Of a DNA stretch of 64,000 nucleotides, positions 2,449-44,817 are shown piece after piece (the stretch's first letter is position 1; each line of letters starts with the position of its first letter). Below the pieces are notes generated by a model that was given only the letters and a program-made list of their open reading frames with translations, was not told the DNA's origin and did no database searches. The position numbers were made by a program, and so were the translations under genes. The stretch is from Sialis fuliginosa (taxonomy: Eukaryota; Arthropoda; Insecta; Megaloptera; Sialidae): contig OY540811.1 of assembly GCA_961205875.1 (NCBI GenBank), positions 22,437,248 to 22,501,247 of the forward strand. Reading direction: 5' to 3'.

Positions 2449-2452
2449 TTAA

Positions 2453-13530: not shown

Positions 13531-13991
13531 CAGTGGCTTAACTATAGAAATGGGGCCCAAGACAATTTCTCAGAAGATGGCCCTTACCAGGGATTTTTTT
13601 TACATTATTCCCCCCCCCCCCTGCAATAATATTTATTGCTTAGAATTTTGAAGAGATGTACCTATTCGAGGTAAAAAAGTGATTTATGTAAAACATTTTA
13701 TTCTGATGCTACAAACCTAAAATGAAAAACAGTCAATAACACCGCAAATTTTCAAGTTTTCGAGATTTTGATATTCAATTTTAGAATTTTATACACCTCA
13801 CTTTTGCATCAGCAAACATGTGAATAATTTTTTCACTAAAAACTTTTTTTTGATCGTTTCGATTCTAAAAAAAAATCAACACAGCAAATAAAACAAAAAA
13901 CGTTTTTTTTCGTTCACCACTTTTGGGGGGCCCCTGATGCTTGGGGCCCGGGACAATCCAACCGGCCAAACTGGCGGTAGTTACGCCACTG
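13531..13991. mobile_element. hAT-like non-autonomous element
   Basis: 461 bp with ends CAGTGGCTTAACTA and TAGTTACGCCACTG. Flanks share the imperfect direct repeat GTGTTA(T/A). CAG...CTG ends and a target duplication of about 7-8 bp point to hAT. The interior has GGGGCCC-type blocks near both ends and a poly-C run at 13612-13621. No transposase. Confidence 0.75.
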
Positions 13992-16421
13992 GTGTTAAGT
14001 AATATGTTTCTTCAGATGATCTGATTTTTAAATATTTTATTCATGTGGGATATGGAGGAATATAATTTTTACGTTTTGAGTGAAAAAAAGGGATTAATGA
14101 AAAACACAAGTATTTATTGTACAAATATGGAATTTATTCACCATCATAATTTCAATTTACAATTTCACAATATAGCTAGATAACTACAGCAGTTTAGAAA
14201 AAATAAAAACTTAAAATAAAGATATGATAATGGCACAGATTCAAACTGTTTGGTTTGAATCTATGACTATATTTAACTCCATTTTACATTCACAATTTTC
14301 GTCACAGATTGTGCACTTATTTTTTGATATGATAATGAAATGAGATTAACACTAACTAATAGAAACAATTATGAATACACTGAAATGCGGTTAAGATATT
14401 CAGTCTCAATTTAAAATGTATTATAAAATGAGAGAGCTATTATATTTTATAATTAATAGAAAACATTAATTGCACATTTTATAAAAATCTGTAAAAAATT
14501 ATATATTAGTTGGGATGTTAAAATTATAAAATTGATAAAAATATAAAAAAATATCTTTGACCACTATAATCTACACAGAAACAAAATATGTATATATATA
14601 TATTTATAAAAATTAACACGACTGTTAAAATAATCTCACAGATATGTTTCTAATTTACAATTACAATGTATTAATTAATTATAATACAATTTAGAATATG
14701 AATAGTGTAAACGATATATTTAATATTCATGTAGTATAAATGTTTGTGATGAAATGTATAAGACTGCAACTAAAAAAAATAAATGTCTATCCTGTCTGAA
14801 ACACTTAAGTACATACAAATAATCACATATAATAATTAGTCTATTTCTCTCAAACAAATTTTATTTTGATAATACCAAAAATTTTGTTTATTTATAATGC
14901 AAAAAAGTAATATCGTTTACATTTTTCATTTTCTCAATCATTTAAATTAAATAATCGTGATGTAATTAAAGTAACTTTCATGTCAAAATTAATAACGTGC
15001 ATAGATGTAAAATTGTTAACAAGTGTAGAATACATGAGCTATATATATAAAATAAAATTTCAATATATTTTTTGTATGTTTCTAGAGTATTATCTTTAGT
15101 AATAAATTAATAAACTATATAATAAGACTTGGTTTGGAACTATTAGGTTCCTTATGAGGACTTCTTGTGAAGTCAAAATACATGTCGAGTTTTTTTATAG
15201 TTAAGTTGTATTTATTTAGTTTAAGTGACTAAGAAACTATAGTTTCTCAATTTTCCAGTAGTATATATTAAGTACCATAACAAATAAAATTTAAGGATAC
15301 AAATATACATACATACTACACATTTTATTGAATAATGTCTTATATAAATTAGCTCATATATTTGTGTATACAAATTCAAAAATAACATAATTCTTCTGGT
15401 AAAATTTAGTACCTTGAATACAATAATAAATCGAGATAAACTGTGTATTGATCTTTTATTGACTATTTAATATAATTTTCAGTCTGTTATACAATTAGTG
15501 CATAACAAATCTTTATCTTACAAAATGAAAAAAGTAAATTTACAGTATCTGAATAAAAACACAGTAATAAAATTATTAACATAGGCTATCTCCTTAAATT
15601 ATATACAATGATTTGTTCTGATGATAATTAGATTTCAATAATTGCATTAATTGATAACACTATATAACAGTAACCAATATCAACATTATACCAATGAGCA
15701 TTGCGACTCAAATGTAGTATAGAAAACAACAAAAGAATAGCATGTAAATGAAAATCATAGGTTGATCCGTAGTAATTATACTAAAATTATTTTTATATTA
15801 GACATGAAACAGGACCATCTTTATAAATTTTGAATAATTTTTTTAATAAAATATCCTTTAGTTTATTTCTATACTCTGAGGCAATTCATTTATACAATTT
15901 TAATTTATATATTTGCTTATATTTTCCATCACGTGAAAATTTATTTATTATCTATAAATATAAAATAATTTTTTATATAATGATATATCAACATTGGCGC
16001 TAAGGCTACACTACAGTTTCGAATATTTTATAATAAAATAATCCAATGTCGTCACTATACTTTCACAATCGGAGATATAACTTACGATTACAAGCACCAC
16101 ACAACATTTAACAAAACAAAAATTAAAATCTAATTATCGTATCTTACAAATACACATCGTTTACGATTACCCAAACTAGGCACGCTGTCATTAACACACA
16201 CGCAATTTAAATCAAGACTTATTTAGCATAGCTGTTTCAAGAATAAATTTATGATTACATTTATTGATTACATAATTCACTAATTGTCTATTACTTACAT
16301 GTAACTATACATTGTCACTTGTTGGCAGTTGACAGTTACAGAGACCGATCAGGCTTCGTCAAACAAGCCGAGTGCGTAGATTGCGTTTATTATCTCAACA
16401 CAACCTATCGATGGGTGAAGA
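13992..16421 (-). other. Sequence downstream of the Lar stop; probable 3' UTR
   Basis: Very AT-rich with no credible coding exon on either strand. Many AATAAA-type hexamers read on the minus strand (for example opposite 16260-16265 and near 15453), so the polyadenylation site cannot be chosen. How much belongs to the 3' UTR is unknown. Confidence 0.4.
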
Positions 16422-16490: not shown

Positions 16491-19400
16491 CTATAAAACA
16501 AGAAAACAAATATTAATATTCTTGTGGACAAATAAAACTATTATAAAAATCAATATTACCTCAGTTTGAACCATAGCTGGACGTTGTGTACGTAAAATAC
16601 GTACAGTCTGGAAAACATCAACCACAGCTTCATACTGCATTCTCTCCAACACGATACTCAAAGTTATAAATACACCAGTTCGACCAACACCAGCACTAAA
16701 ACAATAAAACATTATTATTAGTATATTAGCTAAAATAACATGTATTCGTTAATAAATTAATAAATTACCTGCAATGAACCGTAATCGGACCATCTTGTCC
16801 GAACTGTTCTTTAGTTTTATGGACTTGTCCGATGAAATCAATGAACCCATCACCAGATTTGGGTACACCTTGTTCCGGCCAGTCTATAAACTGAAACTGT
16901 CGTACTGTTCTTGACGACCCGTCTCTTGCATCAGTAACTTTGAACTCTCTTAAGATGTACTGTGGCATATTGTATTCTGCGATTGGATCAACCACAAAAC
17001 AGTTGTATCGCACAGATCGCTCGCTAGGCCAATACTGATGACATTTTTCACGACCCATTTCCTTGAGTTTTGTGAGCATCACAACAATAGTCGAGTTGTG
17101 TTCCCACAACATTCTCCAAAAATCATGAGCAGTATCTGCCAGAGGACCTTGTGTTGCTATGTAAGCATTACGGTATCGGTAACCATCTACAAAACTTGCA
17201 TTAATATAATCCGAGCCTTCAACCTGAAAAATACAAAATGTTTTTATTTACACGTTATCAATATAGGTAAATATTAATATGTAACATAAACTCAAAGTTA
17301 AATAAAATATCTATTTACATACCCCACGAACTGGAGACAAACAGACCCTGGTACTTTCCAAAGGAAGAATATGAACCAATCTATTTTTATGTTTATTACA
17401 AGGTAAATTAGCACTGATAAATCTGTTTGAATCATTTGTGATGGGTTTCATGTTAGATAATTTTTTAAACTCATGTGCCATTCCAGTCATGTTTTCATTC
17501 ATGCGACGTAACTTCTCAATATGAGCATGTAGACTTCTTGCAGGAACTTCTGTATTTCCACATGTAATCGCTTCCAAAAGTGCATCATGAATGAAAATAT
17601 ACTGATCTTCTGTTTGTACCATGTAATTACGCTGGGCTCTCAAACAAGTGACATGTCCATAAATATCAACAGTTCGTTCATGTCGCATTCGTTCGAGCAT
17701 AGAATCAATAACAATAAAGCATCCGGTACGGCCGACACCAGCTGAACAATGTACAACTATGGGGCCTGCAGATCCATCCTGTGGATTTAGACTACGTACA
17801 CGCCTTACAAATTGTAAGAAAGGAGCTGGATGATCAGGAACACCATGGTCAGGCCAAGCTGTGAATTGTAATTGTTTTATTTCGCGTCTGTCAAGTGAAC
17901 CTTGTTTTTGAATTTGGAAAGTGCGAATACAATAGGTAGCTAATTCTTGAACATCGATAACTGTAACTGTTATTATGCCATAAGTATCAGAGCCTCGTCC
18001 TGCAGGCCAATATTGATCACATTTTATACGCGTTCTCTCCTCTAGCTTAGTCATCATGACTATAGTTGCTGTGCGTAAATCCCAACACATTCTCCAAAAA
18101 TCACCCAAAGTCTCTTGTAAAGGTCCTTGCGTTGCCACATATGCATTATGTTTTCTATATCCATCACAGTAATTTGCATTAATATAATCTCCTCCGAGAA
18201 TACCATCTAATGGTTGTAAAATAACACGACTGTGATCGTACGCTATAACATTTGCATATCTATTTTTCGGTTTATTTACTTCCATACTTGAATGATCCCA
18301 AGTAAACTGTTGACCAGGTTCTATACTTTCATACTCTTGAGAAAATTTCAAATTATCATTGGCTTTAAGTCGTTCTATATGATTTGCAAGTTCAGATATG
18401 GGAATAGGAGGATGAGACATCATGGCAGGTGTTTGGAAATTCAGTCTTCGCATTTCAACAGGATCAGTTGGATCAGTAGAACCGTGATCTCCTGCACCTA
18501 AATCGGCTGCCATCAGAGGTCTAGTTACAGCAGGTCCATCAGAAGCTTTACAAGGGCGTCTACGTTTCTTTATGACATACAACAATACAAGTATGCCTGA
18601 CAGACAAGCTGCAGCAATTATAGGTCCAATTATCCAAACCATTCCAGCTTCTTCTGTGTTTCTATTAACTGAAACATCTGATTCAACCGGTACGTTAGGG
18701 TTAGGTCTGCGTGGTGGATCACCAGGTGGAACTTCACGCATATCTAATGCTAGGTATTCTGAGAATGGGCTACTTGTGTACAAATGTTTTTGTGGGGTAT
18801 CTACAACAGCTCTTACAAATATTCTATACCGTTTTCCACGTTCTAATTTTCTATTTACAAAACCATCATGCGTTCCTCCGCTACCTATAATTATAAAAAT
18901 ATCAAAAAGTTAATAAAATAAAAAATCATCCTTAAGCAATGCATATAGATACATACCTAGATGAAATGTATAAGGGATATTTCGTTGTGGAAATTTGGCG
19001 GCAATATATGGAGCGTTTTCCCGTTCTGCTTTTTGTCCTTTATTTGCAATCATATCTTCAGTTAAAAATTGATCAGGATGTTTGTGCGCTGTTGCTTTGT
19101 CTTCAGGAACAACAATTAGATAATAATGACTAATCGGACCATATTCTTCTGATGCTTGTGGTAAAATAACTTGTATTTCCTCTCCATGTGCAACACCGTA
19201 AAAATCTGGTTTTACCATAGGTTGTGGAGCAGCCATTTGAGTTGTGACAGTTATTTTTGTAGGTGGACGATAAATATAATCAGGAGGTATTGCACTAACA
19301 TTAACGTTGTAGGTTGTAAATGGTGATAATTCATTTATTGTATATGAAGTAACATCAGGTTTTAATAAAATTTCTTTTCTTGGTACAATTTGAGTTTGAG

Positions 19401-22400
19401 TAATTCCTTGTGAATCAACAAATTCCTTTACTGCATCAAATGATATTTTATAGTTTACCGGTGTTAATCTAATAGGAGGTGACCATGAAAGAGTCATTGA
19501 ATGAGTACTAACATCATGAGCGTTTAATTTTAGTGGTACATCTTCTGGTTTTACTTTAACAGTCACTTTTTCAGACAGTCGCCCTAACCCTGCCTTGGTT
19601 CTAGCTGCAACTGCTATTGCATATTGTGCATATTTTTCTAAATTCACTAAATCTGCAGATTCAGTCAAACCTACTATTTTATGCTGCCATTGATCTAAGT
19701 CTTCAACAGCAGTCATCGTATAAAAAATTTGGTAACCTATTAATTTAGCACGGGATGGAACTGCTTCCCAAAATACTTCTACACTAGATTCTGATGTAGC
19801 TACGGCATTGACTGACATTGGAGCTCGACCAATATCTCGTTCTGTGTGAATTAAGATCTACAATAGAAATATTTTTATCGATTAATATGTTTATTTAAAT
19901 TTCAATAACCATTTTATTTACCTTTTCACTAAACGGTCCAGCCCCTTGAGATGTGTGAGCTCGAACATGAAACACATAATCTGTGTTTTCTTCCAAATTA
20001 CCAAATACAGCTTTTGTCTGTGTTGTATTCCTATCCATTATAGTAGTATGATCATGAGCTTTATGGAACTGTACATCATAACGAACAACTTGACCATTAC
20101 GGTGTTCTCTTGTTGGTTGATCCCAGGTAATACAAACTACATCAGGAGTTTGGAAATGATAACTAATATTTGATGGTGGTCCTGTAGGCCGGCCTTCCGG
20201 TGTTTGTAAATATTTTATATTCTCTTGACCAACTCCCATATGATTTAAACCAGCTATACGGAATTCATATTCAACGCCTCTCTCAAGTTCATTTATACGA
20301 TGGCTTGTTTGAGTACTTTTCAGATGTTCTTCTCGTAAGGGTTGATCTTTCAAACCAAATCTCAATCGATATCCAGTCAGTTCTCCATATGTTTGGGATG
20401 GTCTGCTCCATTCTAATTCTATTGATACTGTTGGTTCACGCTCTAGTATCCTTTAAATTAATATTAAATTAAAGTTAAGCAGGAAAATTTATATTTAATA
20501 ACTATAAATTCTATGTAAGTCAATGTAGTATCAATACATAATTTTTAAAATGTATTTAACAAATAAAATATTAATAGAAACATACTTTAATGTTACTTGT
20601 GGCCTATTTGGTACACCCCCTGGAGTTTTTATTGTAACAGGTGAACTTCTGTCCCCATCACCTTTTCTTGTAAGAGCTGCTACTTGTACAGAGTATTTAG
20701 TATCAGGTTGTAAGCCAGTCACATTCATTTCTAAAGCTGCTCCATCTAATACATCAAGTCGTAGAGGTTCATTAAGTAAACTTTTACCCTAAAATTCAAA
20801 AGTATTAACAAATATTTTAATTTTTCCATAAAATAAAATTCTAAAAACTAAATGGATGTTATCACATGGTTTAACAATTAATAAATAGTCTTATAAAAAT
20901 TACCTCTTCTTTTGTTTCTTGCACGTGCACATGGTACCCTCGAATGACACCGTTCCGATCTTTCGCAAGTGGCGGTTTCCAAGTAACACGAATACTAGTC
21001 GAGTTAATAGCAAAAATACGTACATCTTGTGGGTCTCCAGGCACTGTTATCATACAAGTTACAATTAGTTTACTGTTATCAAGGAATTGTGAGAAAACAA
21101 AACTTTTTTTTAAATTCTTTATAAAAATTTAAAAAAATATGTAAAATTTAATTTAGAAAGAAATTTGTTAATGAAAAATCTAATAAAATCACTTATATTT
21201 TGAAATTAATTTTGAAAATAAATATTATGGTAATACAAAAGAACTGATAATTAAATTTTTTATTTAATGTTAGAATATAAGTGAATTTAAGAAAGTTATC
21301 TGGTTGGTAACTAAATTTCCAGATATACTTAAACATGCAAAAATATATTTTTTATTCTATTCAGTAGCGAAGTTAAGGAACCAAATTTACCCTCTTATAA
21401 ACATTTGAATACCAACACACACACATATTGGGTTACGTTGCGACATTATTTAGGTAGTTACCTGTCTCCTAATGTCATTTTTGGAACATACAAATAACTA
21501 ATATAAATAATAATTCTAATTATTTAAGAATTTTTAATCAATCCTTTGGCAGCGTAATAAATTAAATATATAAAAACCCTTTTGAGCTGCATTAAAAATA
21601 TTTAAAATTGTTCAGAACATTTAAATCTATAAATTATAAAATAAATTTTAAAGATATTATGAAAAAAATACAAGCAGTTCATAGAAAAAGAAGATCTAAC
21701 AATCAAATACTATAAAACCACTACTTGCACACCACAATAAGTCATATACTCACTCCTTGGTGCTGTCGGGAGTTGGACAATAGAGCAGAGCAAAAAAAGT
21801 CAAGAGAAAAAATGTATTTGCATGGTGCAAAATACTAATATAAAATATATCAGTTTTTATTTAAGGATTCATCATATCAGCACAAAATATAAATATATGT
21901 TAATAGGTATGTGATTTTAAATATTATGAAATAATTTAACAACTGTATTTACAATAAAAATGGCAAATTAATTAATTTTCAGTTAATATAATTTTACAAA
22001 ATAAAAAAATTGAGTATTAGTTTTATTTCATTTTAAAAATAACTTATATTTTATTAATTTTATATTTAAAAAAAACAAAATTAATATAAGATAAATACAA
22101 AATTTATAGTTAATGGGCTATAATGATGAATCCAGATATAATTATAACAATTGTGATCATAGAAATGGAAATGCAGTATTAAATTTTAGTTTTATTATTT
22201 TTTTCTGAAAAACAAATATACTTTTTTATAAAACATTTCGGTTCTATGTTCACATTATATTTATTATTAATCCAAAAATGTGCTGCTATAAAAAATAGAA
22301 AATCTGTAGAAAATATTGCATCCTCCGCTACAAAAATGCTTGAAGGAAGTTAGTGTACACTAAAAAAATTATGTGGAAAAATTGTTAAAATTGCACACTT

Positions 22401-25400
22401 ATACTGACGTAAGAATATGAAGAAAATAACGAAAAATTCTGATGGAGGGTACAAAAATGAAAAAAAAATGGGTACTGGAAATTGTGTAAATACCAAATAT
22501 ATTATATTAAAATTGTGTATTAGTGTAAAAAATCACACACAAAAAATCCTTTTTGTTAAAAAAATACATTTTGTTTTATAAAATCACGCATTCATACAAT
22601 CCTTAAAGTGATGTAAAAAATAAAATTGAAATGCAAAGAACAAAATAAAATAAACAAAAATTTTTACAAATACCAAAATATAAATATATACCTTCTAGAG
22701 CATGTTGAAATATTTTTCACTGTTGTTTTAGTAATACAAAATAATATTATACCCAGTTGATTGAATTGTTAAACAAAAAAATTATTAACAAAATAAAAAC
22801 TATCTATGATTAATGAAAGTATTGGTATTCAAATGTGATACATCTATAATTATATGAATAGATGATTAATGCAGAATATTAATAAATATTTAAGTACTGT
22901 TATACATATTTATAACTATATTCCGCATCGATCTCTTGTTGATAAGGTGAGGCATATTTTTACCACTTTATATCACAATATTCAAATGTTTGAAGTTATA
23001 ATATATATAAAAAGATAATCCATCAATTAACATGAATTGAATTATATAGGTATTTATTATATTTGAATAAAAATAAATACGAAAGTTACTGATTAACAAA
23101 TACATATCCTCACCTTAAGAATGGATTAATCAATTGAAGGGTTATTAAAGAAGTTGAATATTGTGATTTAATCGTGAAATATTAATGTTATTTTTAATCA
23201 AACTCCCACACGTTCACTCACACACACAAATACAATAAAATAATATGGTGCAGTGTTACTTCACAAAGTGATTAGTTAATTAAAATGTGCCATAAAGTGC
23301 ATATGTTAGCCTACTGTGAATTTTGTGCTGCCTAAGAGTAGATTATAACTAGGGACTGTTTGGTATACAAGGAATCATATGTGTAACTGCAATTTGTTTT
23401 AATAAATTTATGTTGTGTCTGATACATTAATACAATTTTGTTCACTTATTTTAAATTTTAAATTCATGTGAAATTGACTTCATAAAGCCTACAGTATATA
23501 TTCAGATTTTGTAAAAAAAAATTTTGACCCACTTAAATATGTATATACTCATTTTTTTTCTCACTCATTGCATTTACTCAAGTAATTATTTAAACTAGTT
23601 AAAGCAGCCATAAACAGTTTATATTATTTGAATTTAATGAACAATGTAGCAGGATGTGCAGTACTGTGCAGGTAGTGCTTGGCAAGAAACCTAAATAAAG
23701 ACAAATTCAAGAAAAAAACCCTGTACTAATGTTTCCAATTTCCTAAAAATTTTCAATCAGAGCAGAAAATTGCATTTCCAGAGAATTCTTGAAATTTCCC
23801 CCAATTTTTTTTAATTCTCAGTATCTAACTATAATATACATATATTTATACCAATATTTATATTTTATGAAATTAAGACACCCCTATTCCCCTCACCCAT
23901 CATCAGTAATTTCTGTTCAGAATTGTTTTGATTATGCATGTACACTATTACGTTTTACAATAGCATGCCATGAGATTCAGTAGTGCAACTATTGCGCTGC
24001 TAAAAGTCGCTTGTGTGTAAGGGGTCTAAGATAGGTAAAATAATTATTTCAAGATTTTATGTATGTATTTTAAATCCCTCCCATTTTCCCTCCAAGTACA
24101 GAATACTATATATATATAATTGAGCCTACTGATAAGAATTACACATGTATGTATACCTATCGTAAAATTTCATTTAACTTGGTTCTTTGATTTAATTTGA
24201 TAATATTACAACATTGTGTGGTTTCCTTTTTTATAAGCATTTATTTAAGATAGTATGGAAAAAAATTATATTACAAGAAATCATCTTTAATCTGTTCTTT
24301 TTTCTAACTTTTAACCCCCTAAATTCATGAAAATGTACAGAATGGAATGAATTATTACAATTAATTAAATACAAGTTAAATACTATTACATAAACTTAAA
24401 AAAAATAATTAAACCTATTAAAATTATTTTTAAATCATTAAGATCATTTTCCCTTCTTTTATCAGAGTCCACCTGCACCTCCACCGCATATTAAAAATGT
24501 ACATTGCAAAATGTACTGCATTTTTTTAATTTAGAAACAGGAGTTCAAATCCAAACCAAACAAAAATAATACATGTCGGTTAATAGATTGAAAAAAATTC
24601 TTATTTGAATTATTTTAAATGTATAAAATTTGAGTCATTTTAACTGCTTTTAAGAATTACAAAATGAACAAAATTACTTTATTATATCATATACAAACAT
24701 TATATTTATGTTTCCAAATAAAATTTGTAAAACTGCAGTTTTGAAAAATTAAATAAAACCGTTTTTTAAATAGATACTAATAATTTTTTAATTATTAAAG
24801 TAAGAAGAGTTAGTCACAATCTTAAGGGTAAAGGTTTAAGGTTTAGGAATATGGAGAACAAACAAAAATACATGCAATAAAAATGTGATATCTAATATAC
24901 CAAAAACGGTGCACGAACTATTAAAAAAATTCAATGATAGAATAATCAAAACGGTGCCGAGTACGATTTATCAAAAATGGTGCATTTGCAATGCAATGCG
25001 TCAGCGTGTGCCAATATTGTGCTCAAAAAAGCAATCATTAACAGTGAGCAAGTGTAAGATATTAATTGTAGACACAGAATAACAAAAACAAAATACAATT
25101 GACACTAAATTTTGTCATATATTTTACTCATTGTATAAATTATTTAAAACCTCATAAGTTGGTACTCCTGCAAACGCTTTTGTAGACAGAAGAAGAAAAA
25201 CTTGATTAGTATATTATTTTAAAATAGAAACTGTTAGATAAATCACAACATATTTTATGTTAGACCCGCCACCAGCAGAAGAAAAATACAAAAAGTTTCT
25301 GCAAAAAATGCTGAAAAAATATTTACATAGTAGTCAAAAATCTATCACCATGTACATATAAAACAATCTGAATATACAAAAATAAAAAAGTACAAAAATG

Positions 25401-28400
25401 TCTTCGTATCTATAAAATCGCACAATTTTATATATTCAGATTATCTTAAAAAATTCACAATATATATATAGAAAAATACAAAAACACTTCAACATATCTT
25501 ACATTGATATGCCAAAAATATATAAAAAATGTATTCTTTTTCAAAAATCTTTTAAAGTAATAAGGAAATAAAATATGATTTTCAATGAAATGAAATATGA
25601 TAGGTATTAATTTGGATAGGTTAGTAAGTTGTAGAAAATATTTTGTGTTAAGAATATTTATATAATTATATTAATTAATTAAGAACACTGCTTAAAATTT
25701 TTATAACTGAGATATTTTGGAAATAACTGATTTTGATATAAATTACATACAAAAGTTTAATGACGTTTAATTAAAATCAAATTAAAAATAAAAATTGAAA
25801 AAATGAAATTTTTGACAATTTTAATTTTGAGTATTTTTCTTTGCATATCAAGATAGTTTGTTAATAGTTATAATATGCTAATAAAAAATTATTATTTGAT
25901 TGTACCCAATATACCTATAATTAATTTAACATATTTTTTAATATATCTATAGTTCACTGTTAAAATATAAAAGTTCCAAAAAGTAAATAATATAAATAAC
26001 TTATATAACAACTTATACATACATTATTTAACATATTACAACTGTTAACAGAGAAAAGATCATTTTTCCTATAATTATCAGATTGTTGATCTCAAATAAT
26101 ACATAAACTTAGTGATACTGTATCACTAAGTTACAGTAATCAATCAACCAATCTTCCACTTATTAAATTTGATTTACGCCGTGATAACAAATACGTACCG
26201 TCTTCAAGAGTTCGCACTGTGATAGGATATGAAGGGGGCCCATCACCCACTGAAGTACCGGCAAGAACCCAAATGCGATATTCAGTCCATTTTTTAAGTT
26301 CATCCAATATAAATTTTGTTGCATTTAATGTTGTGATTGAAGCCTCACTATCTGAGCGTCCTGCTTCAACAGCTTGTAGTTTGTAGTAAACAATACGGCC
26401 GTTGGACCGCTCAACTGCTGGTGGTTCCCAGGATATTTGAATTGCAGTGGGGCTAATCGCTTCGGCTGTTACATTCCGCGGTGGCGCTCCGGGTACTACA
26501 TGTTTTGGGTTTATTTGTTTAGCAGGTTTCGTAGAGTTAAGTGTATTCAATTTGATTTACAAGGATCGTTTATAATTCATTTAATTATTATCGTTTAGAT
26601 TATGTAACACATTCTGGCCATGATTATATATTAAAACATGTTATTGCAGCGTGTTAATTAATATTATATAATACATATTGTATATAAGAATCTATATATA
26701 CGTGCAAATTGCAAGCCGCAGTGAATGTGTTGATTAATAAACATATAATAAACAGTTTAGTAATAATTGTGTGGATAAATAAATATTGCTAAATTACCAT
26801 ATGATTGTAAAGATAATGTGACGAGAAAAGTGCAATTAGAAAATAAATGAATATCCTTAACTCATCTGAAGCTAATAAACAGATAAATAATTTATTTTAG
26901 AGACACGATATAGTATAACTAGATTATAGATATCGGAGTACCTTCCTGTAAATTTATGAATAGATTTGTTTTGATCATCCTAACCAAAAAAATAAAAAGG
27001 CAAATAAAACACAAATACAGACGGTTTTATATGTAAATATTGCTGTAAACAGTGCAGTGCTGTAAAATAAAATCAATACCCACTGACAAATAAAAAATTA
27101 TTTCAATACGGCATGCGATAGTTATACACACTCGCACACAAAACCACACACATTTTAATCATCTTTTATAAAGGGCACTAGCTGTTTACAATATCTAGCG
27201 CTACTGTCTTCGTTATGTTGAAAACTTATTTTGTTATACAGTGTACTGTATAACAAAATCAAACATTGATTACAATAATAGTATTTTAAATAAATGTTTC
27301 CTGTAAAGTTTCCTACCATACTGTTTTGTGCGAACGGGTATTGGAGGTGTGCTTGCGCCCTCGCCTCTTTGGCTTCTCGCTGCTAGCCACACGTGATATA
27401 AAGTATTCGGGTATAATCCAGTCAGTGTATAGGACTCGGATACTGGAATTCTCCTGTGGTGCTGTTCTTTTGCATATGTGTCATTCCAATAAAGTTCATA
27501 ATCGACTATATTTTCAGATGAATGTTGTGGTCTAGTCCATTGCAATGTGACAGATGTTTCACCAATATCATTTGCCCGGAGACCGTCTGGTTGACTCGGC
27601 ACTCCTGTTAACATTTGTATTTTAATATTGTATTGATATAATATAATACATAATACATACCTTGCTGTGTTTTCACTTGTACAGGAACACTGAGTGGACC
27701 AGGTCCAACAGATGTAAAGGCTTGAACACGAATAGTATAAATAGTATGTGGTGTTAACTCACTAATTGTAGTTAACTGATTGTTATCAACTTTTTGTGAT
27801 TCCCATGAAGCAACAGGTTGTTGAGGATCTGTTGTATAATACACTTTATAACCCTAAAATATATTAATATACATTAAAAAATTGAAATTATATTTTACAT
27901 ATTAAATTATAAAACAGATCTATTCATTTAAAATTTTTTATAAAGTATGAAAATATATTTAACGTTGAGCATATTTACGTACACACACAATTGATTTTTG
28001 TCTATCTTGAAATATGAATTATACCTGTGATCATTTAGTAATTACGTCATATTATATATAATATGATACTAACCATTACTTGTCCATTGGGAGTATCTGG
28101 TTCATCCCATTGAATTACCATCGTACTAGAACTAAGTGGCCGCACCTGAACATTCCTTGGAGCCGTTCCAGGTTCTGTACAAATAACAGTGTTTGTTAAT
28201 AATAAAAATGAACACTTAGAAGAATTTTTTTGCAGTTTTAAATTTTATTTTTGTTAGCAAGTTTTTCACTCGAAAAATGCATTAATAGTATAGCTAATAA
28301 TTATTATTAATATAGCTAACAATAAATGCAACTAGTTATTTTTATGAGTAGAGAAAAATTTACCGGGTGTTCAAAATAAATATTTAAAAATTTTATCTCG

Positions 28401-31400
28401 AAAAGTAAAATATTTTCAAAAAAAAGTTACGGAGTTTGGAGGTTGTAATATCATGAATTTTATATTTGTGGGTATTTTTAACGGTTAACTTTTTGTATTT
28501 AAAAAAATGTTTTTTTCATGAACAATCAGATCCTTAGAACAAAAATACAGGTTCTCAATTAAATAATGAAATTACCAATAAAAAGATACGCATTAATAAA
28601 AATATTACGATATTGCAAATTGAGTAACTTTTGGAATTTGTAATGTTTTATTTCGAACACTCAGTATAGAGTGAAATTAAATTTATAAAAAAACATTATG
28701 CTTGCAAGCAAAATGTTTAAAATATACATAAATTTAAATAAAAAGTATACATAAAGTCATTATACAGAATGATTTACAACGAGTGTAAAAAAATTTACAA
28801 TAGATCGAGGATGTTTTTTTAAGTAAAAAACTGTGTAAACAAATAACAATGACTATATAAATACTTTATAGTATAAAATAAAATATAATAAATTATATTT
28901 AATAAGATAACAATAAACCTAAATATCAAATATAAAATTGTTAAATAAAAAATGTTTATGAACAATAACTATAAAATTAAAGAAAATTATAAACAATTAA
29001 TCAAATAATAAATAAGAAAAATAATAATATAAAAGTTTTGAACTTATAAAACAATTTCATATAGGTATGAAAAATATTTTTTAATAACTGTGAAATTATA
29101 CACATAAATAAAATAAACAAATAAATAACAACTTGGTACTTTTTCATTTACTTACTGGAGCCTCCATATGTAGAAGAATCAGCTAAAATATAAAATATCA
29201 ACTAATTATAATTTTGACAGATATTTTTTAACAAAAAACTAGATTGTGCAATTTTATACAAGTACATGTGATAAGAAATAAAAGTAGTAGACAAATCTAT
29301 AGTAAAAAAGTGATCCATTGAAAACAGTCAAAATACAGTGCAGTGGTAAATATAGTCAAAAAACAAAAAACTTTTTTTCAAAAATCACAAAAACTTACAT
29401 CAACATTAATCACAGAATTCCAATGAATTAAATTGAAAGTTGTTTGCATGAAAAATAGAAATCATTGTAGTATAATTCAAAAATCAAAAAATGTTTTCAA
29501 AAACTTAAGAAGTTGTACATCAATAGTACCAATCATTTAATAATACATATATAATATATATTTTTATATTTTTTATCATAATATTTATAAAAATATATTT
29601 AAAAGTAGACTTTATTATAAGTATATGGCATTTAGAATTAAATTAAGATTGCTTTAAAATACATTTATTTTTAATTCTGTTTAAGTTTTCATCGATCTTA
29701 TAATAATATGTATAACAGCTTCTAGCACAGCGTGCTGATGTTCCAGTTGAAAAATATTCCTGTTTATAAAAATAATTAGTCCTAAAGAATTAAATTATTT
29801 TTGTATTTAACTATTTTTCATGTTAGTAGTCAAAAAACTGTTTAACCATTATAATTAGTAAAAAGCAACATCAAATAAAACCTACTTGTCTCTCCTGTTG
29901 TAACAATAACTGGCGCACTAGCAGGCCCTCGTCCGATATTATTTACTGCAATAACGAACAGTTCATATTCAGTATACGGACTCAAATTCCTCACTGAGTA
30001 GTACATAGTAATAATGCCTGATATTTCGCTGTATGGCTGGTTAGCATGTTTTGGTTTGAATGTAACAACATAGTATTGAATTTCTTCAGGGCCTGTATAT
30101 GACCAACTTAGACGCACGGATGTCGCTGTTACTTCTGATACTCTCACATCGATTGGAGCACCAGGTAATGCTGAAACATTACAATTAAATATATTTTATT
30201 TTTGCTCTAGTAAATTTATTAAAAATAGAATTACAATCTTTTGATTTTATATAGTTAGGTGGGGCCGCATACAGAAGAAATTTTTTTTATGAAACCAGTT
30301 TCGTGAAACTTGGTTTGTGAAACATGTTTCATATTTACCGCACACAAATAAAACTTTTAAAATAAAATTAGAAATTAATTTCAACAATGTCCGACGAAAA
30401 GGAAGTGCTAATGCTGTATTGGTTGCTTCGAAAAAAAACGAAAAGGAAACGTAGGTTCTGGGTTCATTTATTTCGATAAAGATTACTGTTTTGCAGGTCA
30501 TAAGTCCATGTAAACAGAACCCAAACATTTTAAATTAAGAACTTGCAAAAAAACTTAGGTCACTGCACTGAATACCCCACTACTAAGGTCTATTATTTAA
30601 ACAATATATTTTTTTTATTTAACATTATATTAATAAATTATAATAATGATTGAACTTGGAACTTCCATGCAAAATTGATGAAACTATGTTTGATGAAAAC
30701 AAAATCACAAGTTTCACGAAACCGCGTTTGTGAAACCACGTAAAATTTAGGTTTCGAAACTCATTGTGCTATATCTGATTGTTTTTCAATTGAATGGTTT
30801 CATGAAACTAAAGTTTCAAGCTTCACGAAACTGGTTTCATAAAAAAAGTTTCCTCTGTGTTTCCTTCTTAGTTGTCAAGTATGATTTTATTAATCGATTA
30901 ATAGCTATACTTTATTTTTTATTTAAGTAAAGGATAAGTCACGTCAAAATGATTGTAGTAGGTATATATTTTATCACAAAGTAGCGGCAAGTAAAGTAAA
31001 GGAAAAATATATGCATACGTATATATAAAAAGTGCAATGTTAAATTTATCAGACTACTTTATGAAAATTATAGATAATATTTTTATAAAATTAGACAGCT
31101 TGTATATGAACATAAATAAAATAGTAACCATACACAAATATACATTTGTGTTACTTTCATTTGGGAAGCAGGTATAACCCTAAAAACATTGCATGACTGT
31201 AGGAAAAATTATTTCAATTTAAGTGTTTGACTTTCATACAATTATTTATTAATTTATTATATTATAATTTTAATTCATAAATTAACTTATAGTTTGTGTA
31301 ATAGACATTAGAAGTGGAAAAAACCTAATGAGTACTTTATATACGACGTAACTAAAAAAAATATACGTACGCCGCTGGACTGTCTCATTTACTTTGCTTT

Positions 31401-34400
31401 AAAAAATAGAGTATAGTACAAGATATATTTTAACATTTGGGTACATGAAGGACATAGACATAACCCTTTATTAAAAATAATAAAATAAACATTTACAACA
31501 GAGTATAAGAATTCCTTATTATATTGGAAATGAAATAATTAACTTACACTGCACTTTTACTTGTGCATGCGCCTCAATTTGTCCGAGTGCACTCGCGGCG
31601 ACGCACGTATAGTTTGCCGACTCGTGTACGTTGTCTAGTTGGAGCACATTGCGTCCGATGGGCATCTTGTCTTCAGGCGTGAGCTCCTGCACGTCACCCT
31701 TACGCCACTTGACAAACGGCATTGGCGAGCCGACGGCGACACATGTTAGAGTCACAGACGCGCCCAGCATCACCTCGGTTACTGGAGGCGGTGGTATCGA
31801 GAATTGGGGAGGCACTCGGCGTACTGCGGAACAGGTTATTATAAAATGGTAAGCACAAAGACTATGAAGAAACTATTAAATCCATCAAACAAAATAAATC
31901 GGATACAAATTTAATGATTACACTACGAGTATAATACAGATGTATCATCATTCTATAATTTATTTGTAAGGAAATAAAATGTTAAGTTATCATAAAAATA
32001 TAGGTTTATCTTCAAATTTTAAAAAAATCTCAAAAAGTAAAATACATCGTCATTACGCTGTAAAAATTCCATTGAATAAAAAAATCTCCTTCCTGCTTTT
32101 AAGAGGGGAGATCCATTTAGACAGCCGAAAATATGCGAATTTAAAAAAAAATTGTATCGAAATTATTAACTCTACATAATTGAAATATTATGTGCATATT
32201 TATTATATCTTTTAATTTTTAAAAATATTTTTTTATTTTATTTTTTATATTTAAAAATGGTGGCTGTACGACACGTGCTTCAGAGACGGTTGCCGCCTAA
32301 GTTGTTCCACTGCATGCATCGTAGCGTCACTAAATTGATCGGAAACATCAGAAACAAGAAGTATTAGATTTTTAAGACCCACACGCTCTATGTGAAGTAA
32401 AAAAATCCAAAGAAAATGAAAATTCTAAAAATGATATGTGTGAAAAATACGTTCGATTTTTCATGAAATTTTTACTAAATTTGTTAATGAAAAAGTATTT
32501 AAAAAAAAACTCAAAGAATTTTTGGTTCACATTGAAGTTAATTATGTTATCTATAAGTGTACAAAACAAAATTATCAATTAAATAGTTTTTGGGTTATCT
32601 TTACCGAGATTCGCGAAAAATGGTTTTCAGAAAACGCGATTAAAGTTTCAAGATTCAATGGTAGAGTTGATAACTCAGTATAGCGTTCACAGGATATAAC
32701 TTCTGAAGGACTGCGAATTTGGATTTAAAATTTTAGGACGATATTCTATGAATGTTTGACTATCATTTTATGCAAAAAAATGAAATTTTTGAATGGATCT
32801 CCCCTCTTATACATAAAATGAATAAAAATACTGCGGTATATAATAAATAACGTAAAAAATCTTGGAAACAATTTTTCTATTAAATCTGTATATTATTATT
32901 ATTCATAAACATCCATTTTCAATATTACAAAAGAGTGTAAAAACATACCTTTTACGTAGAGCGAAGTAGATTTGGAGTATTCAGTTCCGATTGAATTCTC
33001 TGCAACGCACTCATATTTTCCTTGATCTTCTTCTTCACTGTTTGTTATTTGTAGAGCACCTAGAAAACATAATGCATATTATATTTACGATAATGTACCA
33101 TATTTAATATTTAAATATACCTTACTACTTTATTGTTTATTCATTTTTATAACATATTGGAATTATGATTTCAAAAAATATAAATACATTTGTCATACAT
33201 GGTTACACATTATTTTAATAGAAATCAATTTAAAATCCAGTATATAATAAGATGAGAAAATAATTTTTTAACGTTATTTATAGTTAATTTATATTTTTTA
33301 CAAACATCTATAATCTATATAGTAGTAAAAATAAACCAATAAAATAGTAAAACAAATTTATCTGTACTAAAAATTGATGCGTTTTATAAATAAATCATTT
33401 TTATAAACATGGAGAATCGAATCATAAAAAATTGAAAGGATGAAGAGTACACCTTTTCTTATTTTACAGAGATAACCATAAAAACTTAAAATACGGCGAC
33501 AGGTAAACATATGGCTTAGCCTAAAAACGTATTTTACATTGGAGTACCCAGTTCAATAGGAATCTTTCCTGTATCATATGTTACAAGAACCCTTTCTTTT
33601 ATGTAGAGTTTTAGGTATCTCCATACTTTTACTGAAAGATATCACATTGAACGAAAGATGCAGAATTTTATTTTATATGCATCTTGAAAACTCTGAGAAA
33701 AATATCTTGTTTGTTTTCTCTATATGTAAGATGAGAAATTCGTATTTACAAAGTTATTTTACAAATAGAAATATAAAGGGGATGTATAGTTGTATACACA
33801 CTACTTGTATGTACACTCATTTCATGCAAAATGCAACCACTTACATATGTTTCCCCTATCTACTTTTTACTATATACTTTTTATTTAAATTGATGACCGT
33901 TGACGTGTGTTTGAGGTTGCATTATATATCTTCAATACATCATCATGAAGACAAGCAACAGGAAAATGCATTATGGTTTAAATGTATTATTATATGTGCA
34001 GATTTATTATTAAAGTAAAAACGTTGCATGACTGTAGTTAATAATATTCTATTTATTCTTTAATGAAAAGCATACAATCATGGAGGTGACGAATTTCATG
34101 ATAGAAATAAAAATAATATAAAATTAGCTTACAATAAAATTTAGTTTATATAGGGATATAATTTAAAACGGCCACTCATAATTTCCAAATTTAATAAATT
34201 TTATTATAAATTAAATTAGATTTGAGGAACAATTAATTAATTTATATTGTTCTCTAAATGACAATTGTTGACAAAATAATAAAAATAAAAAAGTCCGAAA
34301 GTCAATATTCAACTTTAAAATAATAAATATGTATAACAATTACAATATAAAAAATATTAAATTTTCATCTTACGTTCCCGAAATGATGTTTTCACACTTT

Positions 34401-35187
34401 TGTTTTGATAAAATGAATGTCCGTCATCTTGAATGCATCTACTCATCGTCAATAATGCATAAATTATTTCAAACTAATATTCTTTATTTCTCCGAAATAA
34501 CGCTTAATTGATGTAAGTTACTGAAATAATTATGTCATTCAACTTACCAATTAATTTAAAAAACATACTTAAAAAATACTCGCCGATAAGCAGAGCTTCT
34601 AAAGAATATATTCAGTGAAAAAAAATAAAAATAAAAAATAGGTACCCTTCACTACATAATATATCGACTTTCGGACAAACTTTGACAACTAATTTATTGT
34701 TAATGTTTTATAATTTGCTCTAAATATTTTACAAAATATTAAAATATAACGTGTATTAATCATGAAAACAGTTGTGTATAATTTTTGACAGTTATATTTT
34801 ATACAGAATATCGTAACTGAAAATTGAATTGGGACGCGTTCTCGAAATGATGTTTTGAATGTTTTTGTTCATTAAAAAACAAACAAAATTCACCAAATCT
34901 CCGTTTCTTTGTTCTTAAAGTGTCATTATTTTCTGTTACAATTTTATTATTATTATATTTAAAACAAAATAATAAATAAACTTCATACATACCTGGTGAA
35001 TTTTTATCTAGTAGAGAATACCGAGGGTTCGATGCGGTGTTAAGCGGTAACATATCTTTAAGCCATGTTATTTTCGGTAGCGGCTGCCCTTGAGCTCCAC
35101 ACGAGAGTACTGTGGAATGGCCAATCTCCACTACTTTAGTATTTGGTGCTTGCGTTATCAGCGGGAATCCAGGCGGAACTTTATCAT
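16422..35187 (-). CDS. Lar: Lar receptor-type tyrosine phosphatase (5'-incomplete, 16 coding exons)
   Basis: Type IIa receptor protein tyrosine phosphatase. It dephosphorylates phosphotyrosine at the neuronal and epithelial plasma membrane; in Drosophila, Lar acts in axon guidance and synapse growth. Joining 34993-35187, 32949-33059, 31548-31823, 29886-30170, 28074-28174, 27661-27853, 27317-27604, 26199-26495, 20904-21043, 20586-20788, 19922-20450, 18957-19857, 17323-18884, 16769-17223, 16560-16695 and 16422-16490 gives 5,741 nt in one open frame, about 1,912 residues. Order: Ig2, Ig3, nine FN3 repeats, transmembrane helix, D1, D2. All introns are GT-AG. Drosophila Lar is about 2,030 residues with three Ig domains, so signal peptide plus Ig1 (roughly 120 residues) are missing. 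They are probably upstream of the window rather than lost. Both phosphatase signature loops are intact. Identity is near certain; the absent 5' end and true transcript ends are the uncertainty. Confidence 0.97.
16560..16695 (-). CDS. Lar: Lar exon: D2 phosphate-binding loop
   Basis: Completes D2 [10 protein letters not shown] (the Cys and Arg are kept despite the weak domain), then [20 protein letters not shown] and [17 protein letters not shown]. The donor GAG|GTAATA is phase 0. The phosphate-binding loop is split by a 73-bp intron inside the Ser codon. Confidence 0.97.
16769..17223 (-). CDS. Lar: Lar exon: middle of D2 phosphatase domain
   Basis: Encodes [46 protein letters not shown] and [12 protein letters not shown], ending at the D2 VHC with AG of a Ser codon before GTAATT. 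The WPD aspartate is Glu (WPE). Together with the KNRL Leu, this is the known reason that LAR-type D2 domains are catalytically weak, so the domain is probably regulatory or scaffolding. Confidence 0.97.
17323..18884 (-). CDS. Lar: Lar exon: juxtamembrane, transmembrane helix, D1 phosphatase, start of D2
   Basis: 1,562 bp, the largest exon. The ectodomain ends with [18 protein letters not shown] single hydrophobic helix follows ([20 protein letters not shown]) with the stop-transfer KKRRRP. D1 has the substrate-recognition loop KNRYANV, the WPDHGVP loop with its catalytic Asp, the signature [10 protein letters not shown] at 17722-17751 with nucleophilic Cys, and the Q-loop QTEDQY, so D1 should be active. 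D2 begins with [11 protein letters not shown], where Leu replaces the Tyr of KNRY, as is typical of LAR D2. Ends CGT GGG in phase 0. Confidence 0.98.
18957..19857 (-). CDS. Lar: Lar exon: FN3 repeats 8-9 and membrane-proximal region
   Basis: 901 bp. Starts [20 protein letters not shown] (FN8), continues with [20 protein letters not shown], then [20 protein letters not shown] (FN9). It ends with the long membrane-proximal segment [18 protein letters not shown] and [19 protein letters not shown]. One base is left for a Gly codon before GTATGT. Confidence 0.97.
19922..20450 (-). CDS. Lar: Lar exon: FN3 repeats 6 and 7
   Basis: Begins [19 protein letters not shown], passes [20 protein letters not shown], the linker [17 protein letters not shown] and the repeat 7 core VCITWDQP. 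Ends [13 protein letters not shown] in phase 0 before GTAAAT. The [11 protein letters not shown] motif is almost identical to Drosophila Lar. Confidence 0.97.
20586..20788 (-). CDS. Lar: Lar exon: end of FN3 repeat 5, start of repeat 6
   Basis: Encodes [20 protein letters not shown], then [20 protein letters not shown] and [20 protein letters not shown]. It ends with AA of a Lys codon before GTATGT. Acceptor TGAATTTTAG. It finishes FN5 and begins FN6 at the PGGVPNRP linker. Confidence 0.96.
20904..21043 (-). CDS. Lar: Lar exon: start of FN3 repeat 5
   Basis: Encodes [39 protein letters not shown] and ends QETKEE before GTAATT. It begins with TG completing a Val codon after GATAACAG. Family-typical FN3 start with PGDPQDV and the WKPP motif. 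Confidence 0.96.
21754..21762 (-). CDS. Lar: Candidate 9-nt Lar microexon (FN4-FN5 linker)
   Basis: CACCAAGGA lies between an unusually long pyrimidine-rich tract of about 45 nt ending CCCGACAG and a strong donor GTGAGTATA. Phase 1 at both ends, like the flanking exons. Inclusion would replace the junction Val with Ala-Pro-Arg-Met (net three residues) between LED and PGDP. A long polypyrimidine tract immediately upstream is characteristic of neuronal microexons. Proposed from sequence alone; very short exons can be coincidental. Confidence 0.5.
26106..26132. other. Perfect 12-bp hairpin near a Lar 5' splice site
   Basis: AACTTAGTGATA, loop CTG, then TATCACTAAGTT. It begins 66 nt into the intron after the FN4 exon (minus strand). 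Confidence 0.8.
26199..26495 (-). CDS. Lar: Lar exon: FN3 repeat 4
   Basis: Encodes [39 protein letters not shown] and ends VRTLED with one leftover base before GTACGT. Phase 1 at both ends. It joins across a 5.15-kb intron to VPGDPQDV; that intron contains the 9-nt microexon candidate. Confidence 0.96.
26496..27316 (-). other. Lar intron (FN3-FN4)
   Basis: 821 bp, phase 1. Contains the perfect hairpin 27228-27259 and nothing else recognised. Confidence 0.8.
27228..27259. other. Perfect 15-bp palindromic hairpin in a Lar intron
   Basis: ATTTTGTTATACAGT, spacer GT, then ACTGTATAACAAAAT. It lies 57 nt downstream of the FN3-3 exon donor on the transcribed strand. Confidence 0.85.
27317..27604 (-). 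CDS. Lar: Lar exon: FN3 repeat 3
   Basis: Encodes [38 protein letters not shown], then [20 protein letters not shown]. Donor TATG|GTAGGA. The [17 protein letters not shown] stretch closely matches Drosophila Lar. A perfect 15-bp hairpin lies 57 nt into the following intron. Confidence 0.97.
27661..27853 (-). CDS. Lar: Lar exon: rest of FN3 repeat 2
   Basis: Encodes [19 protein letters not shown], then [20 protein letters not shown] and PVQVKTQQ. Starts in phase 0 after TATTTTAG and ends CAA G|GTATGT. It is separated from the FN3-3 exon by only a 56-bp intron, the shortest in the gene. Confidence 0.97.
28074..28174 (-). CDS. Lar: Lar exon: start of FN3 repeat 2
   Basis: 101 bp encoding [19 protein letters not shown] then [14 protein letters not shown]. 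It contains the conserved FN3 tryptophan. Acceptor TTTGTACAG, donor ATG|GTTAGT (a less common GTTAGT donor). It joins in phase 0 to GYKVYYTTD in the next exon, a junction conserved in Drosophila Lar. Confidence 0.95.
28363..28664. mobile_element. Mariner/Tc1-type MITE in Lar intron
   Basis: 302 bp. Left end TA|CCGGGTGTTCAAAATAAA; right end TTTATTTCGAACACTCAG|TA. About 15 of 18 terminal positions match on inversion, and TA flanks both ends (28361-28362 and 28665-28666), the Tc1/mariner target. No transposase frame. Confidence 0.75.
29156..29182 (-). CDS. Lar: Candidate 27-nt Lar microexon (FN1-FN2 linker)
   Basis: Inside the 1.7-kb intron between FN1 and FN2. It is bounded by a T-rich stretch ending TATATTTTAG and a near-consensus donor CCA|GTAAGTAAA. 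Phase 1 at both ends, so inclusion keeps the frame and inserts nine residues, TDSSTYGGS, before KPGTAP. A short Ser/Gly/Tyr linker insert is typical of mini-exons in this receptor family. Based only on splice-site quality, phase and composition; no expression evidence. Confidence 0.65.
29886..30170 (-). CDS. Lar: Lar exon: FN3 repeat 1
   Basis: Encodes (S)[18 protein letters not shown], then [11 protein letters not shown], through the FN3 tyrosine-corner region and VIVTTGET. Phase 1 at both ends. The donor ACA A|GTAGGT is weaker than most in the gene, which fits the possible regulated inclusion of the 27-nt microexon in the following intron. Confidence 0.96.
30171..31547 (-). other. Lar intron (Ig3-FN1)
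   Basis: 1,377 bp, phase 1. Nearly half is the inverted-repeat element 30272-30857; the rest is AT-rich and unremarkable. Confidence 0.8.
30272..30857. mobile_element. Inverted-repeat element rich in GTTTC/GAAAC motifs
   Basis: 586 bp. The left end CAGAAGAAA plus T-run then ATGAAACCAGTTTCGTGAAA is repeated inverted at the right end (30820-30857, reading CAGAGGAAAC plus T-run). At least ten GTTTCRTGAAAC-like half or full palindromes fill both subterminal regions, as expected for transposase-binding arrays. CAG ends hint at hAT, but no clear 8-bp duplication was seen. Confidence 0.75.
31548..31823 (-). CDS. Lar: Lar exon: Ig3
   Basis: Whole Ig3 domain in one exon, starting [13 protein letters not shown], with first cysteine in [15 protein letters not shown], then [10 protein letters not shown] and second cysteine in ANYTCVAAS. 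The acceptor is GTTCCGCAG and the donor is CAGT|GTAAGT. It is clearly richer in GC than neighbouring DNA. The [10 protein letters not shown] stretch is a strong family hallmark. Confidence 0.97.
31824..32948 (-). other. Lar intron (Ig2-Ig3), at vertebrate meB position
   Basis: 1,125 bp, phase 1. 710 bp are an inverted-repeat element. I found no convincing microexon here. Confidence 0.8.
32100..32809. mobile_element. 710-bp element with 17-bp terminal inverted repeats in Lar intron
   Basis: TAAGAGGGGAGATCCAT at 32100-32116 is perfectly inverted at 32793-32809. The interior carries a GC-richer block near 32265-32345 including GTACGACACGTGCTTCAGAG. No transposase. Class undetermined. Confidence 0.75.
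32949..33059 (-). CDS. Lar: Lar exon: second half of Ig2
   Basis: 111 bp, phase 1 at both ends. It encodes [20 protein letters not shown] followed by the linker to Ig3, including the second Ig cysteine in DxGxYxC. It starts exactly at the GALQI position. From what is known of vertebrate PTPRD/S/F, mini-exon meA is inserted at this junction and meB at the exon's other end, just before VRRVPP. Confidence 0.96.
33060..34992 (-). other. Lar intron inside Ig2, at vertebrate meA position
   Basis: 1,933 bp, phase 1. The plus strand has a 146-codon open frame at 33578-34018 with no recognisable motif, probably chance. ACNTTGCATGACTGTAG at about 34020 also occurs at about 31184 in another Lar intron. 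Confidence 0.75.
34993..35187 (-). CDS. Lar: Lar exon: first half of Ig2
   Basis: First Lar exon found in the window. It begins in phase with a leftover AT (probably GAT, Asp) after a TTTGTTTCAG acceptor and ends NSP-G before GTATGT. It reads [14 protein letters not shown], then the first Ig cysteine in [11 protein letters not shown] and the core tryptophan in ITWLKD. The preceding exon must end with one base of a codon and should encode the end of Ig1; I could not find it in the 28.8 kb upstream. Confidence 0.95.
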
Positions 35188-41610: not shown

Positions 41611-42891
41611 TATCTACGTTAATTAATTGCCGATTTTACAATCGCCTGCTCTAAAATCCTAACTGAATTCATACGATTAAATCGTTTGGTTTGATTTTGG
41701 ATTAGACCAATTTTTTTATAATACCAGTCATAAGCATGTTTTTTTCGTTGTCTTGTAAAACATGAGTTTTGAGGTTTATCCGACAAATTCTTGACAAATT
41801 GAAAATATGGATTGATACAAATTTATTATTGACGTTGGCTAGTTTAAAATTTTAATATTCGAATGAAAAAAACTGATTTGCACATTCGGCATTTTAAAAT
41901 TTTACCATTAATAGATGTTTAAATAAATTTCCAATTATAAAAGAAAAATATCAACAATTTACACAATATACCGTCATAACTGACAGCGTTCAATATTTAA
42001 CTTTTTTATTTTAAATTTTATGTTCAATAATAAATTATTAAATATTCTACCGTATAATATAAAAATTCAAAACAACACAAAAAGTACGACACTGACATAT
42101 ACGTGTGTATGAGGTATCGTGTGCTATTTTATGTTATCCCTAATGACGCAGATCGACGTACCGGCGTCACAATGCAACGCCACGACGCCCATTAGATACA
42201 CTGTGTCATCTGCACTACTCTCATTATATCAGCAGTATTTAAACGGAGCTGTCGTATTGATATCTAATGGATTTATCAACTAAACAGACAATCTGTTAAT
42301 ATGTATATCTACTACTTATTTTTTTCTCAATTAATATCATGCCATTCGAACTATACTGTAAGTCAAAGATAGTAGTTATGCTATAACCTAGTAAGTGTTG
42401 AAAAACTTTCATTAAAAATGTACTCCGTAACATACTAATATGTCCAATAAGATCTATTCGAAATTTATTGAGTAATCGCTAGAAGTTATAAGTGAAAGAA
42501 GAGTTCAAAGTATTTCCTTTTTTATTCACCAAAAAACATTTACTTTGAATCGCCCAAAAAATGCTTTAATTTAACTGAAAATTTTTATTATTTTTGATTG
42601 TTATAACATGGATTACTATATAACAATCGACACAGTAACTACCAAAAAGAGTTTATTGTGAGCATATATATGGTTACCTCAAAAAAATAACTTTGAGATG
42701 AATTTGGGGTTCAATGTTTATTGGTGTGATTACTTTTCATCATGTCCTCGAAAAGATACATTTCTAGACTGTTACTATTTGCTAATATATATTTTTTGTT
42801 ATTTTTCCTTGAAAATATTAGATAATATATAAATAAAGTTTTTGTATTTCGATATTTATTGTACGAAAAATTATCGTTATATTACGTGGGC
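41611..42891. other. AT-rich DNA with a CpG-bearing patch
   Basis: At 42145-42205 a patch contains GACGCAGATCGACGTACC and ACGCCACGACGCCC. A 49-codon plus-strand frame (start about 42132, stop near 42281) overlaps it. Not recognised; coding or regulatory role unproven. Confidence 0.25.
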
Positions 42892-43368: not shown

Positions 43369-44251
43369 CATTTTCTAGCTTTTCCAGATAATATATATTT
43401 TTTTATTATTTTTCCTTGCAAATAACATGCAGAAATACACATATCAGAAAAATACAATAATTTTTTTTACAAAATAAAACTATCATTACTTGACTTTATT
43501 CACATCACCGATTATTCGATAGTAACGTTATAATTAATGTACAAAATAGTAAATTCAATTTGAAAATAGATATTTTATTTTACAATTTGCCTTCATATAT
43601 TGCGTCTTATCCGATATCTAATGATGTTTTACAACATTCTGTTGATATTAACATCCAACAGTATCTTTATTTATATAGTTTTATCAACATTACATAAAAT
43701 ATAACACACATAACAAACAATCTGAAAGATACAAAATTAACATTTACATTGTATGATATTGATATTTAATCAAGCAAACTTCCTTGATTAGAGCTCTTAT
43801 AGCAACATAGAATCGGTTTTAGAATACAGGTAGTATATGCACATCTAATATTGTACCCACTTTATTGTGCAGGCTGTACGCCTAATGGAAATTTGTATGT
43901 AATTGGCTAAATGTGAATTTATGAGGTCTCTTCCCTAACCCGACCGCAATCGTAGCTCCAGGAAGCGACTGAGATGGGACAGGAACACACTCCTGGAATA
44001 TACACTCGAGAAATTGTTCACTTTGATACAATCGATAGCAACTAAACTTATGCATCGTACATAATATCTTGATGGAACTTATGTTCCAATTTAAATTGAA
44101 ATTAATAATTTGTTGGGAATTTGTAGAATATTGTACGTTTATATTAAACAACAAATCAATATTAGATATTTTCTTCTTTAGGCTTTCGTGGCCGTTATCC
44201 ATAAGAGCTAACTTTTCGGGCTGTTGTCCACGTTGTCGTATTGTATTTCTT

Positions 44252-44285
44252 GACGTTTCGACATTCATGTCGGAGTCTTTTACAG
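44252..44285 (-). ncRNA. Decayed hammerhead-ribozyme-like core, left arm
   Basis: Minus strand reads CTGTAAA, then AGACTCCGACATGAATGTC, then GAAACGTC. Hammerhead layout is CTGATGA, stem II, GAAA. The first core is mutated and stem II is imperfect, so activity is not expected. Confidence 0.4.
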
Positions 44286-44783
44286 AAGTGTTTCTGAAAC
44301 TGATGTCCTTATTTCGCGTCGGTTCTTATTGTGAAAACAGTCTTCAAAGATTCTAGAAAGTTGGTAACGCATGTTTCTAAAGCCCGAGATGAACATCAAC
44401 AACGTCAGGGTCCGTGCACATGTGGGAAAGTATATGTTGGCCAAACTGGCATCAGCCAAGATCAACACGAGTCTTAAGGAGCATATCAGCCATACTAAAC
44501 ATCGCCACCGGGAAAAATCAGCAGTGGCAGAACACCACCCCCACACCGGGCATACCATTAAAATCAAGGACACGAAAATACTTGTTAGAGAACGAAGATT
44601 TTGACCCATACTTTACAAAGAGGCTATCGAGATTAAGAAACATTCCGACAATTTTAACCGTGACAAAGGGATCGAACTACTTAAGGCGTGGTTACCAGTC
44701 ATCCGAAACGTCACGCATGACTACAGATGACACAGGTATATAACGACCGACGCAAGATAAGGATATCAGTTTCATAAACACTT

Positions 44784-44817
44784 GTGAAGAAGACTCCGAC
44801 ATAAGAGTTGAAACGTC
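44784..44817 (+). ncRNA. Decayed hammerhead-ribozyme-like core, right arm
   Basis: Reads TGTGAAGA, AGACTC-CGACATAA-GAGTT (stem II with one wobble pair), then GAAACGTC. The first core differs from CTGATGA at two or three positions. Penelope-like element terminal repeats are known to carry hammerhead ribozymes. Confidence 0.45.

Follow-up and report, generated by a model that had tools for sequence, protein, structure and literature searches.

Known microexons of the LAR family and of insect neurons

Microexons are established at several sites in receptors of the LAR family (PMC10883964, PMC8711739; accessible text), and four of them have been named: meA in Ig2, meB between Ig2 and Ig3, meC in FN5 and meD near D1 (accessible text of PMC8711739). 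Vertebrate meB (ELRE/DQRE) lengthens a flexible inter-domain linker, and both RNA data and binding assays have proven it. As for meC and meD, which are small inserts outside the Ig domains, the available part of the report describes no role. In the excerpted text of PMC10883964, eight uncharacterised exons are given for mouse Ptprd and one for Ptprf, and an exon between FN1 and FN2 may be among them. With regard to this part of the receptor, no substantial FN1-FN2 interface was apparent in RPTP-sigma, and FN1-2 is where the binding of NGL-3 has been mapped (PMC4239663, in part). Among the literature matches listed, titles and abstract openings did not name an FN1-FN2 microexon in Lar, and 'Lar' as a whole word was absent from the main text, as far as available, of PMC8797185 and PMC8042270.

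In insects, bee elavl2 provides a linker microexon whose inclusion changes with learning (PMC8553928, excerpt). The eMIC-dependent (Srrm2/3/4) microexons of Drosophila have a median length of 31 nt, and the accessible text of PMC8797185 marks them by a long AG-exclusion zone, UGC, UCUC and CUAAY, short flanking introns, an extremely weak 3' splice site, and a weak 5' site of their own together with a strong upstream 5' site.

The Lar gene of the window

The window, that is, the whole stretch of 64,000 nucleotides analysed here, comes from a genome of 392 Mb in 20 contigs. Exons of a Lar gene were placed by reading, which yielded 15 donors and 16 acceptors, and the joined exons were checked for stops (Table 1). 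The model extends from what we take, by the domain order of the family, to be the second Ig domain into the second PTP domain. Its first 387 residues were assigned to I-set and fn3 (Pfam), whereas the PTP domains were recognised by eye in the translation. The seven top PDB matches of FN1-FN2 (among the 60 listed of 191 matches) were PTPRD, PTPRF and PTPRS. With Ig, FN3 and two PTP domains and with PTPRF/PTPRD/PTPRS as its nearest relatives, the gene belongs to the type IIa RPTPs (Lar). No relative of the FN1-FN2 protein was found in scans of bacterial, archaeal and viral contigs.

Table 1 Features of the Lar locus in the window (positions are those of the window)
Feature	Positions	Strand	Details
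Lar model	16560..35187	-	15 exons placed by reading; 1,890 residues, stop-free
FN1 exon	29886..30170	-	ends TGET plus one base (phase 1); donor CAA/GTAGGT
First FN2 exon	28074..28174	-	leading two bases complete K of K-PGTAPRN
FN1-FN2 intron	28175..29885	-	1,711 nt, 20% G+C
Candidate microexon	29156..29182	-	27 nt, phase 1-1, insert TDSSTYGGS
Candidate acceptor	29183..29202	-	GTTGATATTTTATATTTTAG; score 3.34, AG-free zone 17 nt
Candidate donor	29150..29155	-	GTAAGT (full CCA/GTAAGT); score 7.9
6-nt alternative	29156..29161	-	CTGAT branch point, TTCTTCT tract, ATGGAG acceptor, in frame

Eight of the 15 Lar introns are no longer than 135 nt. A short motif search of positions 35188-64000, upstream of the Ig2 exon, recognised no Ig1 exon, which suggests either that the exon was missed or that the intron exceeds 28 kb. 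In the same upstream region, a 48-nt block on the minus strand (42162-42209; acceptor 7.3, donor 10.8, coding-like codons) was met in the null scan described below; either chance or a small 5' exon of Lar could account for it.

A candidate microexon between FN1 and FN2

The candidate sits between the FN1 exon and the first FN2 exon of Lar and reads, with its flanks on the minus strand, ttttag/CTGATTCTTCTACATATGGAGGCTCCA/gtaagt (29182-29156). The first-pass annotation had described a 27-nt block with a T-rich acceptor and a near-consensus donor, and TTTTAG and GTAAGT are read at its two ends as claimed. Its further claims, namely phase 1 at both ends, compatibility with the flanking exons and the nine-residue insert, were confirmed in the 15-exon model. 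Skipping joins the FN1 and FN2 exons directly to give the linker TGETKPGTAPRN, and the product reads TTGETKPGTAPRN; inclusion adds TDSSTYGGS after TGET, keeps the frame without a stop and divides the intron into 703 and 981 nt. The two junctions of inclusion (29886/29182 and 29156/28174) and the direct one (29886/28174) are all compatible with the stop-free model. The block has the anatomy of a possible cassette microexon: it is not longer than 30 nt, is bounded by AG and GT, and preserves the reading frame at either end. Since the AG lacks a following GT, a recursive splice site at this position was rejected.

The block is unique in the window at up to three mismatches, and the only genome match of the 141 bases around it, in a search of the 392 Mb that skips very common words, was the sequence itself. 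A search with the spliced 126-mer for a retrocopied transcript that carries the insert gave matches in the two flanking exons and nowhere else, a result that was counted as neutral.

Splice signals

Splice matrices were built from the gene's own 15 donors and 16 acceptors. The candidate donor scores higher than 7 of the 15 real Lar donors (leave-one-out; median 8.1), and the acceptor higher than 6 of the 16 real acceptors (median 5.0). Both scores are within the range of the gene and slightly under its medians, neither clearly weak nor strong. Of the 15 real Lar exons, 10 have a sum at least as high as that of the candidate, 11.2. Across the 15 Lar introns (13,025 nt), no other in-frame candidate of 9-60 nt equals the block in both scores; in the size range of 3-60 nt, both scores are reached by the block and by a 6-nt sub-block that shares its donor.

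An AG-free zone of only 17 nt precedes the candidate acceptor, compared with at least 27 nt at all 16 real Lar acceptors; it is equally short or shorter at 42% of 1,271 other AG sites with an equal or better acceptor score. A branch-point-like TTGAT, whose A lies 16 nt before the exon, is present upstream. A YTRAY site within the AG-free zone is found at the candidate; such a site is also found at 12 of the 16 real Lar acceptors and at 13.7% of the 1,271 other AG sites. Since the short zone nonetheless holds a YTRAY site, the two facts were taken as about offsetting.

The 6-nt sub-block raises the question of a still smaller microexon, GCTCCA, which would add SS and for which the first 21 bases of the 27-nt block would serve as branch point, pyrimidine stretch and acceptor. 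We consider this very improbable: it shares the donor, is also in frame, has the A of its CTGAT 18 nt before the exon and has a better acceptor score (5.5 against 3.34), but a GAG acceptor occurs at none of the 16 real Lar acceptors, and its AG-free zone is likewise short (19 nt). GAG acceptors are rare, and by the scanning rule TTTTAG, being farther upstream, would usually be reached before it.

Coding signal and chance expectation

The 27-nt block contains 12 G or C among its 27 bases. Of 1,685 windows in the intron, 28 have this G+C count; 25 of these were listed, 4 of them at the block and 21 in a separate patch near 29744. Codon usage of the block is coding-like: its codon score against intron triplets is 5.13 bits, which places it above 56% of the real coding windows of Lar; of 6,122 intronic 27-mers free of stops, 80 score as high or higher. 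The second G+C-rich patch of this intron (29715-29760) contains a near-palindrome, CAGCACgctGTGCTAG.

We then compared these values with a null sequence of 248,000 nt, taken from eight 10-kb stretches chosen arbitrarily and from window positions 1-16000 and 36001-64000, in each case with both strands; the window positions may cover upstream introns of Lar itself, and L001, L010 and L011 were left out. For blocks of 9-60 nt, the splice sum was reached 35 times, both scores 8 times, and the splice sum plus codon score twice, corresponding to about 1.8, 0.42 and 0.10 per whole Lar intron set, respectively. The combined splice and codon rate is 0.014 per intron of the candidate's size and about 0.05-0.10 per whole-gene intron length, and one of its two matches is not longer than 30 nt. 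When simulated on the intron's own composition (two models, 400 runs each), the splice sum was reached by a block of at most 30 nt in 5% and 7% of runs. In another simulation of 1,500 introns (9-60 nt), splice signals alone were matched in 24%, and the joint signals in 0.2% (total codon score) or 1.2% (per-codon score).

The principal rival reading is that of a chance pseudo-exon: in an AT-rich intron with many AG and GT, one pair would happen to enclose an open 27-mer of slightly raised G+C that is never or almost never spliced in. We regard this as quite possible. Splice-score matches of 9-30 nt occur (in 451 of 3,000 simulated introns of this size for the splice sum alone, and 23 times in the null sequence), the AG-free zone is shorter than that of any real Lar acceptor, and the criteria were picked after the candidate had been seen. 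On the other hand, the 451 simulated introns fell to 22 with the codon score (per codon), to 83 with a branch point, and to only 6 with both, which argues against chance. Scaled to the 15 Lar introns, the expectation is about 0.015 with the branch point and 0.10 without it. It should be noted that all these chance figures are rough and serve as guides, because the criteria were post hoc and the matrices came from few sites of one gene.

Thus, for the candidate, frame and codon evidence is good and a branch point is present, the splice sites are average, and the AG-free zone is short. We give a probability of roughly 0.5 to the reading that the 27-nt block is a used cassette microexon of Lar, at a site other than meA-meD. 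These even odds reflect the frame, the codons, the branch point and a receptor family that bears microexons, set against the short AG-free zone.

Comparison with described microexons

The first-pass annotation had placed the candidate at neither the meA nor the meB site, and this holds: its position, the FN1-FN2 boundary, is also neither that of meC nor that of meD. Like vertebrate meB, the candidate is short, keeps the frame and would extend a linker between two domains of a LAR-family receptor, but it differs in its linker, in its nine residues and in having no sequence likeness by eye; moreover, meB is proven by RNA and binding assays, whereas the FN1-FN2 insert is a candidate. Like meC and meD, it is a small insert outside the Ig domains, although at a different position.

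Two Lar introns (34992-33060 and 32948-31824) presumably correspond to the sites of vertebrate meA and meB, according to the domain layout of the family. A search of these introns for meA/meB-like blocks of 3-60 nt gave none as good as the candidate in both scores. The top one listed, a 51-nt block at 34598-34548 with a sum of 8.8 and 27% G+C, was judged to be due to chance.

As for the eMIC-dependent microexons of Drosophila, the length of the candidate is near their median, it lies in a gene known to act in neurons, and its acceptor is under the gene median. However, its AG-exclusion zone is short, and the introns around it are not. UGC, UCUC and CUAAY were all absent from the 60 nt upstream, where TTGAT is the only branch-point-like site. 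The upstream donor (7.5) is not stronger than the candidate's own. With regard to the 3' splice site, six of the 16 real acceptors score lower than that of the candidate. Most eMIC marks are missing. The microexon reading of the first-pass annotation stands in part: the anatomy fits a possible cassette microexon, whose splicing into the transcript, neural use and control of partner binding are inferences.

Possible effect on the receptor

If the candidate is used, two forms of Lar would be made: one in which FN1 and FN2 are joined directly, and one in which nine small polar residues follow TGET in the same frame. The insert would lengthen and loosen the FN1-FN2 linker, as vertebrate meB does for the Ig2-Ig3 linker, and the longer linker might alter domain orientation or partner binding at FN1-FN2. 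In view of the lack of a substantial FN1-FN2 interface in RPTP-sigma, an insert may be tolerated there, and most likely would act through linker lengthening. The three aligned structures of the family, 4yh7, 6tpw and 4pbx (of the 60 listed from 191 matches), have no insert at this point, which counts against the microexon.

More generally, insect Lar would have a cassette microexon outside the four named family sites and, through it, an additional form whose FN1-FN2 linker is longer, a proposal that we consider rather unlikely. If true, it would represent an invertebrate splice switch in the receptor region reported to bind NGL-3 in vertebrates. Use of the block would also mean that splice-coded linker inserts of type IIa RPTPs occur beyond the vertebrate sites meA-meD, and it would offer a testable insect case of a nine-residue change that alters receptor geometry. 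An unused block would instead illustrate how plausible microexons can arise in AT-rich introns.

Other elements in the window

At 43885-44887, open-frame pieces including CGKVYVGQTG were noticed by eye, with similar pieces on both strands; they look like the GIY-YIG end of a Penelope-like element. At 59045-59642, a nearly identical frame (SEYALYSTGVWSANINETISKLQCF) is present on both strands; the region is therefore an inverted repeat, perhaps from a mobile element.
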